A stretch of 64,000 nt of DNA, taken from positions 186,001 through 250,000 of the forward strand of contig NZ_CP119780.1 in NCBI RefSeq assembly GCF_029338195.1, written 5' to 3'. The stretch is from Haloarcula litorea (GTDB lineage: Archaea; Halobacteriota; Halobacteria; Halobacteriales; Haloarculaceae). This document shows positions 34,221-37,957 of this stretch, in pieces. The number at the start of each line of letters is the position of its first letter. The first letter of the stretch is position 1. Under the pieces are notes generated by a model, which was given only the letters and a program-made list of their open reading frames with translations, had not been told where the DNA came from and made no database searches. The translations under genes and the position numbers were made by a program.

Positions 34221-35225
34221 TCAGCCGCCGTCCGCGAGGGTCCGGACCTCAGCCCAGAGGTCGTCCTCGACCTCGACGGCCGTCGCGGTCCGGTCCCGCT
34301 CGACCGAGCGCTGGCCCGGCAGCCGGACCTCGTCGACGTGTGCTGCCGTCGGACCGTCGGTCAGTCCCCGGAGGAACGCGCTCGCTCGCTCCGAGAAGTC
34401 GGCAGCGCCCAGGGCGTCGGGGTCCAGCGCGAGGAACAGATCCCCCTTCGTGCAGGGGTCCTCGGTGTGGTACGTCCCGGTGACGTCCGCGCCCATCGCC
34501 GCGCCGACCAGGCCGCCGGCCAGGACCTCGACGGCGATCGCCAGGCCCGAGCCCTTCGCCCCGCCGAACGGGAGGATGGTCCCCTCCAGGGCGGCCTCGG
34601 GGTCGGTCGTCGGCTGGCCGTCGGCGTCGAGCGCGACGCCCTCGGGCAGTTCCTCGCCGGTCTCCTTGCGGTGGAGCACGTCGCCGCGGGCGATGGCCGA
34701 CGTCGACATATCGAGGTTGAACGGCGGATCGGTCGGCAGGCCCACGGCGATGGGGTTGGTGCCAAGTACCGGATCGACGCCGCCGTATGGCGGCATCGCC
34801 GGCTCGGTGTTGGTGATCCCGACGCCGACGTAGCCCTCGCGGCGGAGCTGGTCCGTGTAGTAGCCCAGCATCCCGAGGTGGTTGCTGTCGTGGACGCCGA
34901 CCGCGCCGACGCCGAACTCGTCGGCCCGGTCCATCGCCTCGCCCGCGGCGGCGCTCGCGACCACGGGACCGAGCCGGGAGCCACCGCTGATGGTCGCCGC
35001 GCCGCCGCGCTCGTCGACCACCTCGATGTCGCCCTCCGGATCGACGTTGCCGTGCTCGATCCCGCGGACGAACCGCGGGAGTCGCAAGAGCCCGTGGGAG
35101 TGCTTGCCGCGAGCGTCGGCGCTGACCAGTACCTCGGCCGTCTGAGTCGCGTCCGCGTCCGTGATCCCGTGGGCGCGGAAGGCGTCGGCGGCGACCGCGA
35201 CGGCCCGCTCTCGGTCAACCTCCAT
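34221..35225 (-). CDS. Ldh/MDH2-family dehydrogenase (ComC-type sulfolactate dehydrogenase candidate)
   Basis: A predicted 334-aa NAD(P)-dependent oxidoreductase of the malate/L-lactate/sulfolactate dehydrogenase (MDH2, PF02615) fold. Landmarks are ADARGKHSHGLLRLPRF near residue 48, GAVGVHDSNHLGMLGYYTDQL with the catalytic His near 120, ITNTEPAMPPYGG, DPVLGTNPIAVGLPTDP and LPFGGAKGSGLAIAVEVL. The family includes (R)-sulfolactate dehydrogenase ComC. Its start overlaps the stop of the SuyB/UxaA-like gene (TAATG), so they are translationally coupled. In that company oxidation or epimerisation of sulfolactate is the favoured role; a ureidoglycolate- or diketogulonate-type role is the alternative. 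Confidence 0.85.
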   Translation of the reverse strand: MEVDRERAVAVAADAFRAHGITDADATQTAEVLVSADARGKHSHGLLRLPRFVRGIEHGNVDPEGDIEVVDERGGAATISGGSRLGPVVASAAAGEAMDRADEFGVGAVGVHDSNHLGMLGYYTDQLRREGYVGVGITNTEPAMPPYGGVDPVLGTNPIAVGLPTDPPFNLDMSTSAIARGDVLHRKETGEELPEGVALDADGQPTTDPEAALEGTILPFGGAKGSGLAIAVEVLAGGLVGAAMGADVTGTYHTEDPCTKGDLFLALDPDALGAADFSERASAFLRGLTDGPTAAHVDEVRLPGQRSVERDRTATAVEVEDDLWAEVRTLADGG

Positions 35226-36391
35226 TATGTCGAGGGACCGATGCGGTGGATGGCGAACTGGCTCTCGCCCAGCGCCTCGCTCATCGTCATCTTGCCGTTG
35301 ACCACGTCCTCGATCTCGTCCCAGAGCTGGTCGGTCGCCCAGTCGAAGTCCTCGTCGCCGACCAAGGCCTCGCTGACGTCGACGTCGGTCTCCTCGGGCA
35401 CCCGCTCGGCGCTGTTGGGGTTGCCGGTGATCTTGATCGTCGGCATCACCGCGTTCGAGAGGGTGTGGCCCTGCCCCGTCGAGATGACCATGAAGTGCGC
35501 GCCGCCGGCACCGATGCCGGTGACGGACTCCGCGCCGTGGCCGGGCGTGTCCATGATGTACATCCCCGACCCGTCGGGGATCTTCGCGCCGTAGTCGACG
35601 ATGTCCTGGATCGGGCCGTCGCCGGACTTCACCAGCGCGCCCAGCGACTTCTCCTCGATGGTCGTCAGGCCGCCGTCCATGTTGTCCGGCGTCGGCTGGG
35701 CACCACGGACGTCGTAGCCCGTGGCCTGCAGGCGCTCGTCCCAGTGCTCGACGCGGTCGAGGATCTCCTGGCGCACTTCGTCGTTGACCGCGCGCTCGGA
35801 GAGCTCGTTCTCGCCGCCGAAGAACTCCGGCGTCTCGGCGAAACAGCCACGACCGCCGTGGTCGTCGATGAGCCGCCAGACCGCGCCCGCGGTCGCCTTG
35901 TGCTGGCACAGCCCCGAGGTGGTGTCGGAGGTGGCGCAGTTGATGCCGAAGGTGAGCTTCGACATGTCCGCCGGGACGCGGCGCTGTGCGCTGGCCTCGA
36001 TGGCCATCTCCTGAGCGGCGTCGACCGTCGCGTCCAGCGCGTTCATCACGCCCTTCTCCTCGTGGATGTTGATCGAGGCGCTGGGTCGACCCGTCTCGGC
36101 GACGTCGGCGGCCAGTTCGTCGCCGTCGACGATCTCGCCCGCGTGGGCGACCACGACCGCGCCGTAGGTGTTGGGGTGGGTCGCGTAGCCAAGCAGCGTC
36201 CGATAGGTCTGGAACACGTCGGGCTTGGTCTGACACCGCCCCAGCGGGTGCGTGATGGGGATGGCGTCCTCGACGATGTCGGCGGCCCGCTCGACCGTGT
36301 CGTTGGCGTAGGGGGCCGTCGAGACGATGACCGTGTGGTTTCGGATGCCGACGCTGCCGTCCTCCCGCTCGTAGCCTAGGAACTCGCTCAT
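35225..36391 (-). CDS. suyB: UxaA-family lyase large subunit (sulfolactate sulfo-lyase beta candidate)
   Basis: A predicted 388-aa protein of the altronate/galactarate dehydratase family (PF04295/UxaA C-terminal part), split from its SAF domain, which is encoded 2 bases upstream. Motifs are GYEREDGSVGIRNHTVIVST, THPLGRCQ, INCATSDTTSGLCQHKAT, PTPDNMDGGLTTIEEKSLG, ISTGQGHTLSNAVMPTIKITGNP, TDVDVSEAL and MTMSEALGESQFAIHR. From memory SDTTSG, STGQG-x-x-x-N and the MTxxEALG tail match (2R)-sulfolactate sulfo-lyase SuyB better than UxaA, which has SDGFSG and TTGRG. SuyB releases sulfite from sulfolactate, giving pyruvate. Length (about 390) also fits SuyB. An in-frame GTG at 36397 is an alternative start. 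The altronate dehydratase alternative cannot be excluded without alignment. Confidence 0.7.
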   Translation of the reverse strand: MSEFLGYEREDGSVGIRNHTVIVSTAPYANDTVERAADIVEDAIPITHPLGRCQTKPDVFQTYRTLLGYATHPNTYGAVVVAHAGEIVDGDELAADVAETGRPSASINIHEEKGVMNALDATVDAAQEMAIEASAQRRVPADMSKLTFGINCATSDTTSGLCQHKATAGAVWRLIDDHGGRGCFAETPEFFGGENELSERAVNDEVRQEILDRVEHWDERLQATGYDVRGAQPTPDNMDGGLTTIEEKSLGALVKSGDGPIQDIVDYGAKIPDGSGMYIMDTPGHGAESVTGIGAGGAHFMVISTGQGHTLSNAVMPTIKITGNPNSAERVPEETDVDVSEALVGDEDFDWATDQLWDEIEDVVNGKMTMSEALGESQFAIHRIGPST

Positions 36392-36393
36392 TG

Positions 36394-36717
36394 TCACTCG
36401 CTGATGGTGGCGGCCTCGCTCTCGTCGGCGAGGTCACCGCGGCCGTAGTTCGATTCGACGTTGTGGACGTGGACCCACGTGCCCGCGGGGATGTCCTCCG
36501 TCGCGTTCCCGATGCTCTTGCCGTACTTGACGATGGTGTCGCCGTCGGCTATCTCCTCGATCGCGATCTTGTGGCCGAACTCGACGTCGTCGACGACCTC
36601 GACTGTGCGTTCCTCGTCACCGACGCCGACCGTGACGGTCTCGCCGGCCTCGAGTTCGCGGAGCGCGGTCGCGACGTTGTCCGATGGTTCGACGACCTGT
36701 AGATACCTGTCGGGCAT
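36394..36717 (-). CDS. suyA: UxaA-family small subunit, SAF domain (sulfo-lyase alpha candidate)
   Basis: A predicted 107-aa SAF-domain protein: MPDRYLQVVEPSDNVATALR, LEAGETVTVG, VVDDVEFGHKIAIEEIADGDTIVKYGKSIGNATEDIPAGTWVHVHNVES. The FGHK...I..G..I.KYG..IG.A...I..G..VH.HN series is the metal/substrate-binding core of UxaA N-terminal and SuyA subunits. The gene ends 2 bases before the large-subunit ATG (TGACAATG), so the two chains are made together. In bacteria the split two-gene form is typical of sulfolactate sulfo-lyase, though archaeal altronate dehydratases may also be split. The leftward ATG at 36717 was chosen over an upstream codon. Confidence 0.75.
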   Translation of the reverse strand: MPDRYLQVVEPSDNVATALRELEAGETVTVGVGDEERTVEVVDDVEFGHKIAIEEIADGDTIVKYGKSIGNATEDIPAGTWVHVHNVESNYGRGDLADESEAATISE

Positions 36718-36780
36718 ACACTCCGAACAGTGGCGCGCCGGGTTATAATGCTTTCTCATACCACACCCCGGCGCGACCGG

Positions 36781-37758
36781 TCACAGCAGCAGGGTCACGC
36801 CGGCCAGCGCGAGGAGGCTGACGGTCACGAGGTGTGCGAGGACGACCAGAATCGGTCGGAGGCCGGTCGCCCGGAGCCGCCTGGGGTTCAGTTCGAACCC
36901 GAGGCCGACGAACGCGAGGGTGAACAGCCAGTCGCCGACGCGGGCGACCGCGGCCTGCGTCCCCGGCCCGACCAGCCCCGCGTTGACGATGCCGGCGACG
37001 AGCAGGAAGCCGACGAGGAACTTCGGGAACCGGTACCAGACAACCGACGGACTGGCGCGCTCGCCGTCCGTGGCGTAGAACACCGCGTACCCGACCGCGA
37101 GCACGCCGATGAACGTGTTCCGGACGAGCTTGGTGACGGTCGCCCACTGGCCGGCCGTCTCGGAGACTGCGAAGCCGACGGCCGCCGCCGGACCGGTCGA
37201 GAACAGGCTCAGCCCGGCCCAGACGCCGAACACCCGATCCGGGAGCCCGAGTACCGCCCCCAGTGCCGGAAAGGCCACCAGCGTGACCGCGTCGAACAGC
37301 AGGACGGTCCCCGCCGCGTAGCTGATGTCGGCCTCGTCGCCGTCGACGCTCCCGGCGACCGCGAGGACCGCCGAGACGCCACAGACGCTCGCGCCGGCCG
37401 CCAGCAGCGACCGTGTCCGCCCCTCGATCCCGGCCTGCCGGCCGACCAGTTCGACGAACAGGACGCCGACGACGACGACGGCCGCCGCCAGCGCGACGAC
37501 GGTGGGGCCGGTCGTCGCGAGCTGGGCGAGCGTGAGCTGTGCGCCCAGCAGGACGATGCCGGTCTCCAGCAGGAGCTTGTACCTGTCGAGCCCCGGCTCG
37601 GCCCACGCGGGCGTCCCGACGGTAGCGGCGAGGAGTGCACCGCTCGCGATGGCGACCACCAGCGGGCTCAGCGGCGTCGCACCGCCGACCGAGCGCGCGA
37701 CGACGGCCAGCCCCAGCAGGACGACGAGCCCGGGCACCGGGCGGACGACCGGCCGCAT
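36781..37758 (-). CDS. YeiH/PSE-family putative sulfite or sulfate exporter
   Basis: A predicted 325-aa membrane protein with nine or ten hydrophobic helices of the YeiH (UPF0324, putative sulfate exporter) family. Recognisable segments are YKLLLETGIVLLGAQLTLAQLA, LLAAGASVCGVSAVLAVAGSVDGDEADISYAAGTVLLFD, FGVWAGLSLFSTGPAAAVGFAVSETAGQWATVTKLVRNTFIGVLA and WYRFPKFLVGFLLVAGIVN. The family takes its name from SuyZ and CuyZ, which sit in bacterial sulfolactate/cysteate operons and are thought to export sulfite or sulfate. Its place 63 bases upstream of the SuyAB-like pair is the strongest context evidence for desulfonation here. The ATG overlaps the stop of a 45-codon gene. Confidence 0.88.
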   Translation of the reverse strand: MRPVVRPVPGLVVLLGLAVVARSVGGATPLSPLVVAIASGALLAATVGTPAWAEPGLDRYKLLLETGIVLLGAQLTLAQLATTGPTVVALAAAVVVVGVLFVELVGRQAGIEGRTRSLLAAGASVCGVSAVLAVAGSVDGDEADISYAAGTVLLFDAVTLVAFPALGAVLGLPDRVFGVWAGLSLFSTGPAAAVGFAVSETAGQWATVTKLVRNTFIGVLAVGYAVFYATDGERASPSVVWYRFPKFLVGFLLVAGIVNAGLVGPGTQAAVARVGDWLFTLAFVGLGFELNPRRLRATGLRPILVVLAHLVTVSLLALAGVTLLL

Positions 37759-37895
37759 CAGGGGGCCAGCGCGACGGCGGCGACGATGGCGACGCCGAGG
37801 GCGGTTGCCTTCCACCCGCGGTCGGCCGTGGCGACCCGGCGGCGGCAGCGAGCGGCGAGGCTGCCGGCTTCGCGGCTCGAACCGTTTGGCTGCAT
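37758..37895 (-). CDS. 45-aa small membrane protein coupled to the exporter gene
   Basis: ATG 37895 opens MQPNGSSREAGSLAARCRRR, then VATADRGWKATALGVAIVAAVALAP, a basic head and one short membrane helix. Its stop overlaps the exporter start (TGATG), which strongly suggests translational coupling. An AT-rich CTTTATGT (read leftward from 37926) about 25-32 bases upstream is a suitable leaderless promoter. No family is recognised; it could be a helper subunit of the exporter or a leader that drives its translation. Confidence 0.5.
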   Translation of the reverse strand: MQPNGSSREAGSLAARCRRRVATADRGWKATALGVAIVAAVALAP

Positions 37896-37957
37896 ACACA
37901 GAGACGACCGGGCACACCTACATAAAGGTACGGCGTCCGTCACCGGCAGCCCCCGGG

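Follow-up and report, generated by a model that had tools for sequence, protein, structure and literature searches.

Exporters of the PSE/YeiH type are poorly characterised. YeiH is required for sulfite resistance in Salmonella, a tie that was reported recently (PMC12880088). Two PSE topologies are distinguished in the survey of Sudha et al. (2021): PSE_1, with 9 helices, and PSE_2, with 11, of which two are extra N-terminal helices (PMC8396727). In that survey, topology variation within a fold type is placed in the N-terminal part of the scaffold, and OAD_beta is listed in the same CPA/AT superfamily. A small subunit accompanies OAD beta: the gamma subunit of oxaloacetate decarboxylase (OadG) has one transmembrane helix, binds OAD beta, stabilises the complex and touches both core and scaffold (PMC7274780). 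A second small protein of this kind is subunit IIa (CbaD) of ba3 oxidase, which is 34-41 aa long, forms one helix and is encoded directly 5' of subunit II. This protein is the structural equivalent of a helix missing from subunit II, is often unannotated and, in the account cited, goes undetected where subunit II has two helices (PMC3128077).

The locus described here lies in the window, the whole 64,000-nucleotide stretch of Haloarcula litorea DNA that was analysed, and encodes a 45-aa peptide followed by a PSE exporter. Its features are:

37919..37927, minus strand: TATA-like element CTTTATGTA, with its centre 28 nt 5' of the peptide ATG
37758..37895, minus strand: 45-aa single-helix membrane peptide with a positive N-terminus, the core DRGWKATALG and a very short C-terminal tail
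36781..37758, minus strand: PSE (putative sulfate exporter, PF03601) membrane transporter, 325 aa (PF03601 E-value: 4.9e-53)
36394..36759, minus strand: SAF-domain (UxaA N-terminal-like) subunit, the next gene of the operon, context only (PF08666)
35225..36397, minus strand: UxaA/GarD C-terminal-type lyase or dehydratase subunit with a GTG start, context only (PF20629, PF04295)
34221..35225, minus strand: Ldh_2-family dehydrogenase, context only (best NCBIfam model L-sulfolactate dehydrogenase, 326.5 bits, below the cut-off of 500)

The peptide ORF runs from an ATG at 37895-37893 to a TGA at 37760-37758 (product: MQPNGSSREAGSLAARCRRRVATADRGWKATALGVAIVAAVALAP). Its frame is open farther 5' (115 aa from 38105), and the conserved part starts near the 37895 ATG. 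The hydrophobic helix covers residues 28-44 (mean Kyte-Doolittle 1.85), in agreement with the preliminary description of this DNA, which had proposed a membrane peptide with one clear helix. The same description had noted an overlap between the peptide stop and the exporter start and a promoter-like element belonging to the ORF, and both are present. The exporter ATG (37758-37756) shares the A of the peptide TGA, giving the junction TGATG. A TATA element centred 28 nt before an ATG has the usual spacing of an archaeal promoter with a leaderless transcript. Judged from this spacing, the element would act as a promoter and the peptide-exporter mRNA is probably leaderless, with its 5' end at the peptide ATG. 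By eye, a T-rich TATA-like element is found at a similar distance in 8/8 close relatives (weakest in L006); the search pattern was picked after the sequence had been viewed, and its rarity is no test. A scan of the locus for sigma-70 promoters and terminators, which does not cover archaeal promoters, found none, and no clear Shine-Dalgarno sequence is seen by eye before the exporter ATG.

The exporter had been called yeiH. Its assignment to the PSE family stands, as the protein passes PF03601 (180.5 bits, gathering score 24.5; residues 9-305, positions 1-303 of the 304 in the model), but the name is loose, since the YeiH model TIGR00698 gives 85.3 bits against a cut-off of 232.6. No solved structure matches the exporter by sequence at E<=0.1. 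For its predicted model (pLDDT 79, pTM 0.78), the best Foldseek match is CitS (9lsk; probability 1.00, E-value: 0.014), with none at E<=0.001. In VIA-align the model resembles PaNhaP (Z 16.7, rmsd 3.7, 261 aligned), CitS (Z 14.2, rmsd 4.3, 265 aligned) and also NapA, on a scale where helical bundles yield middling Z by chance. The modelled structure is good, but not decisive, evidence for a CPA/AT-type fold.

An exporter search of 391 genomes of the class found PSE in 234. The loci were ranked by exporter similarity only, with the peptide ignored, and the top 30 (one per genome, window included) were read. A short hydrophobic peptide ORF lies directly 5' of PSE in all 30 (each E<=2e-8). These peptides have the core motif W..L[DE]R[GD]W[QK]A..LG, of which the first W is absent in the closest clade; the variants NRGW, LGRGW, LGEGW, LDGGW and LERDW occur elsewhere. 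Where the peptide is listed in annotations (Haloarcula pelagica, Halorussus halophilus, Haladaptatus halobius and Halomarina sp.) it is a hypothetical protein, and searches of an open-access literature collection turned up no description of it.

A known protein family for the peptide was rejected on Pfam and NCBIfam scans. Among 38 peptides, Pfam matched 12 families with one member each (best E-value: 0.01) and no match was backed by several members; NCBIfam matched 3 families, again with one member each (best E-value: 0.078), and no family emerged. An earlier scan of 23 peptides gave a best single family match with an E-value of 0.0016. A known RNA element was also considered and discarded, as Rfam gave none at gathering score. 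The peptide represents a conserved family of small membrane proteins that was found in neither Pfam nor NCBIfam.

A profile built from 23 peptides of the 30 best loci (A1), with 17 candidates scored per genome, matches at E<=0.01 in 169/391 genomes. Of these, 164 belong to the PSE-bearing set of 234 and 5 have no PSE (Fisher 1e-45). The best 30 A1 matches, window included, all lie directly 5' of PSE, as do 18/20 further picked matches. The A1 matches in the PSE-less genomes G001, G233, G283 and G290 have E-values of 0.0012-0.0046. Two candidates for peptide copies away from PSE (L243 and L244) were set aside as spurious, having neither a helix nor a PSE gene, and none of the 50 A1 matches examined is a credible copy away from PSE.

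A cleaner count comes from 294 genomes drawn evenly across the phylum and scored with profile A5 at E<=1e-5, to which 9/30 positive genomes had supplied rows. Within Halobacteria, A5 is positive in 30/36 genomes with PSE vs 0/17 without (Fisher 3e-9), and 30/30 positive sites are just 5' of PSE on the same strand. Seven weaker A5 matches (E-values of 8e-4 to 0.01) occur in G578, G612, G017 (a second match), G019, G038 (a second match), G425 and G033, and the open frames that hold 5 of the 7 are 189 to 1219 aa long. The only PDB sequence match to A5 (2jh3_A, E-value: 0.11) is not a credible relative. In G408, a genome of the same phylum outside the order of the window, a short version of the peptide (MDRGWIAFLFGLIIISAILLGLKVPW) precedes the PSE gene. 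The peptide gene is thus a conserved protein gene in haloarchaea that is linked to the PSE exporter; the preliminary description had named conservation of the reading frame upstream of the exporter as its check, and conservation is found at the protein level, across haloarchaea and in this one archaeon outside the order. With a single helix, few conserved positions and no known function, the product could in principle be an unrelated small membrane protein, such as an insertion aid, whose only tie to PSE is a common operon. This explanation is very improbable, as it fits poorly with the 30/36 vs 0/17 distribution, with the lack of copies away from PSE among the 50 matches examined and with the fact that the pair stays together in varied gene neighbourhoods.

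The peptide is not present at every PSE locus. Genomes without an A1 match (31 loci) and second copies (5 loci) supplied 36 distinct further loci, and a wider profile finds the peptide in 21/36, typically in the diverged form RWTALERDWQSVVVGAAIVAL..IPW. When pooled, 63/80 distinct haloarchaeal PSE loci are peptide-positive at E<=1e-3 and 17 are negative, a count for which the profile seeds were drawn from those same loci. On haloarchaeal plasmids the peptide is found in 7/8 loci checked (two of the 7 being loci already counted), and the PSE copy of Halobacterium salinarum plasmid PHS2 is without it. In archaea other than haloarchaea, the peptide is missing from 16 short PSE genes (L074-L085, L087, L088, L098 and L102), and bacterial short PSE plasmid loci lack it as well (0/9); the PLSDB gene tables used for plasmids are incomplete, such that absence from them proves nothing. 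Because the peptide is missing or decayed in 17/80 haloarchaeal loci, some PSE exporters presumably work without it.

Individual loci vary further. Among those that are peptide-negative, L124, L158 and perhaps L127 look like remnants. Seemingly decaying peptides, with the frame open and the motif broken, are seen in L124, L142 and L158, where the exporters still match P0003. At L247 (G274:C1:3108000-3110600) there are three consecutive GW units (HGWNSFGRGWDSLGRGWRAVFFG), as if a membrane-face motif had been repeated.

Substitution patterns indicate that the peptide is selected as a protein. Across 28 pairs from 8 close relatives pN/pS is 0.48, and the same DNA read in the other two frames gives 1.42 and 1.65. 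The 16 core codons have a pN of 0.10 and a pS of 0.46; the 14 codons preceding the core are looser (pN 0.39, pS 0.66). Differences at the three codon positions are 0.27, 0.23 and 0.50. Taken with the linkage to PSE, this protein-level selection rules out a chance ORF. Among 92 distinct loci, the gap between peptide and exporter is -7 to +8 nt in 86, and the peptide stop overlaps the chosen exporter start in 52. This is the spacing of coupled genes, and from the overlap we infer translational coupling, as the preliminary description had. The phase between the two genes takes all three values (64, 22 and 6 of the 92 loci), with the motif kept throughout. Because the phase varies while the motif stays, the motif is not a shadow or by-product of the exporter frame, and a frameshifted exporter N-terminus is ruled out on the same grounds.

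The overlap could also mean that the ORF serves translation only, starting it on a leaderless mRNA and delivering ribosomes to the exporter, with the amino acids irrelevant. The TATA-like element 28 nt before the ATG, the frequent stop/start overlap and the lack of a clear Shine-Dalgarno sequence before the exporter would all suit such a leader. It is nevertheless an improbable explanation, since the peptide is under protein-level selection, its motif is retained across distant taxa and differing phases, and the peptide persists in L086, L253, L103 and L125, where 26 to 46 nt separate its end from the start chosen for the exporter.

PSE_2 exporters belong to the same transporter family as the haloarchaeal exporter (PF03601), and their N-terminal EDWWAVWLG.. 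helix resembles the peptide core. The set compared combines long PSE_2-like proteins of further archaea in the phylum with 80 public loci (bacteria and Archaeoglobaceae). Its N-terminal consensus is gw..lw.kEDWWAVW.glgi, and DWWA is present within the first 60 residues in 80/80 PSE_2 loci, which is partly built in because EDWWA was one of two scan patterns. Profile comparison of the peptide with the PSE_2 N-terminal part gives a probability of 61% (P 8e-5). Against the whole of PSE_2, the best match of the peptide profile falls on the N-terminal DWWA helix (P 0.007, probability 5.5%); against PSE_2 without the N-terminal part P is 0.057, and against reversed PSE_2 it is 0.48. When the 80 PSE_2 proteins were cut into 1025 tiles, 34 matched at E<=1, of which 32 contain the N-terminal DWWA, and no reversed tile did so. 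In 51/80 proteins the N-terminal tile scores best (reversed: 6/80), and in 29/80 another tile does; PSE_2 proteins are related, and these tile counts are not independent events. The similarity is short (18-20 columns). Early comparisons, in which the PSE_2 profile held few sequences, gave poor results, one of them placing the peptide on the C-terminal PSE_2 helix, and the N-terminal helix stood out only after 80 further PSE_2 loci had been added. Evidence of moderate strength therefore suggests, from sequence profiles, that the peptide resembles the PSE_2 N-terminal helix specifically.

The two forms are also arranged differently. Both the peptide and the PSE_2 helix are N-terminal relative to the exporter core, but in PSE_2 the helix is part of the same chain and is followed by a second extra helix, whereas the peptide is one helix encoded by its own gene. 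A separate peptide is found 5' of PSE_2 in 0/80 loci, 77 of which have at least 400 nt of upstream sequence; four matches at E<=1 in these regions (best 0.02) are unlike helix peptides at the right place. In a PSE_2 model (pLDDT 88), residues 5-25 form a confident helix that holds the motif (pLDDT 94 for residues 11-30). The VIA-align matches shown for this model begin at residue 76 at the earliest and so carry no information on either extra helix.

The 94 exporters compared were placed in a quick tree, in which the root is not inferred, PSE_2 serves as outgroup for drawing and long branches are present. The haloarchaea group together with G408 (support 95), and another branch (support 99) separates PSE_2 from the haloarchaea. 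As haloarchaeal exporters do not nest within PSE_2, a simple gene split from PSE_2 is not supported. Peptide presence changes 13 times among haloarchaea on this tree, where 'absent' may include undetected copies. The most economical account is a single ancient pairing of peptide and exporter, followed by repeated loss or decay. We give about even chances to a broader proposal, in which haloarchaeal PSE was ancestrally two-component: the same scaffold helix would be either free (~45 aa, encoded by an overlapping upstream gene) or in-chain (PSE_2), the free form having since been lost in several lineages. If so, nature would offer here an example of a single transporter helix that works in trans in some exporters and in cis in others, and the peptide-PSE pair would be a compact test bed for a helix moving between a separate gene and a single chain. 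Short and long PSE genes occur within ~5 kb of each other in five non-halobacterial contigs (G494:C6, G486:C48, G478:C3, G619:C91 and G532:C7).

The peptide resembles a detached segment of the exporter in its longer bacterial form and is therefore probably a missing part of the machine. The best reading of these sequences is a small subunit of the PSE exporter, and the precedents of OadG and ba3 oxidase subunit IIa make that reading reasonable. Like OadG, the peptide would be a small one-helix subunit with a transporter partner of CPA/AT type, to which it may bind; OadG differs in being longer and in recruiting the alpha subunit through a cytoplasmic tail. No match to OAD_gamma (PF04277) is found among 38 peptides at E<=10, in a search whose HMMER filters drop weak matches. 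Subunit IIa is likewise a tiny one-helix protein encoded by an upstream gene and the counterpart of an in-cis helix of its relatives. It is likened to the peptide by description rather than by sequence, and it is part of a respiratory enzyme rather than of a transporter.

Small membrane proteins may also regulate their partners, as SgrT and AcrZ do. A peptide of this type would control the exporter or another membrane factor, as inhibitor or sensor, and would not complete a fold. Its small size, strict linkage and lineage losses are consistent with such a role, as is its absence from bacterial short PSE loci; its likeness to a helix built into PSE_2 points instead to a structural role, and it has no soluble sensing part. 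A regulatory role is unlikely. We regard the peptide as probably a dedicated small partner subunit of the haloarchaeal PSE exporter that would bind it and replace the PSE_2 N-terminal helix. A missing subunit, if confirmed, would account for any case in which the haloarchaeal exporter could not be expressed or reconstituted on its own.

The proposed model for the subunit and its exporter is as follows. One leaderless mRNA starting at the peptide ATG would carry both genes, and at the TGATG overlap the ribosome would restart on the exporter, such that both products are made together. Positive charges would keep the N-terminus of the peptide in the cytoplasm. Before the helix, the family has on average 4.0 positive and 3.9 negative residues, and the tail after the helix is nearly uncharged; as the window peptide is clearly positive in this region and the family as a whole is not, an inside location of the N-terminus is weakly indicated. 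With the W..L[DE]R[GD]W segment at the inner face of the membrane, the A..LG..IV helix would pack on the N-terminal scaffold part of the exporter, filling the place of the extra EDWWAVWLG.. helix that is built into the 11-helix PSE_2 chain. There its most likely effect would be to stabilise either the oligomer or the scaffold, which stays fixed as the core makes the elevator-type movement of the CPA/AT fold and would export sulfite or a similar anion.

The genes that follow the exporter bear on its substrate. The PSE-SAF-UxaA-type order is shared by the window, Haloarcula pelagica, Haloarcula halophila and Halomarina, and PSE, SAF, UxaA-type and Ldh_2 genes make up a conserved haloarchaeal cluster (34221-37758 in the window, L033, L263 and L269). 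The SAF and UxaA-type genes have a two-subunit arrangement like that of the sulfolactate sulfo-lyase SuyAB. Among the functional UxaA/GarD enzymes listed in one account, only SuyAB is described as heteromeric, and the title of a reference in it ties SuyAB to a sulfate exporter (PMC6336799). Sulfite or a similar anion is the likely substrate, because YeiH is needed for sulfite resistance in Salmonella and a SuyAB-like two-gene UxaA-type enzyme follows the exporter.

The cluster lies within a sugar island (26489-48180 of the window). An alpha-xylosidase (GH31) and a D-xylose 1-dehydrogenase (Gfo6) are encoded there, both above NCBIfam cut-offs, together with an enolase-superfamily dehydratase, a DHDPS-type aldolase and a sugar ABC transporter. 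An interpretation of the island as a sulfosugar pathway was dropped, as two of its genes pass the alpha-xylosidase and D-xylose dehydrogenase NCBIfam models. A different neighbourhood is found at L264, on Haloarcula pelagica plasmid unnamed2 (132736-140578), where genes for an SDR, the peptide, PSE, two UxaA-type proteins, a HisD-type dehydrogenase and a TRAP binding protein form a row. We take this row to resemble bacterial dihydroxypropanesulfonate/sulfolactate clusters; for the HisD-type gene, NCBIfam confirms only the histidinol dehydrogenase type. The peptide at L264 was detected by profile, and an IclR regulator precedes the row on the opposite strand.
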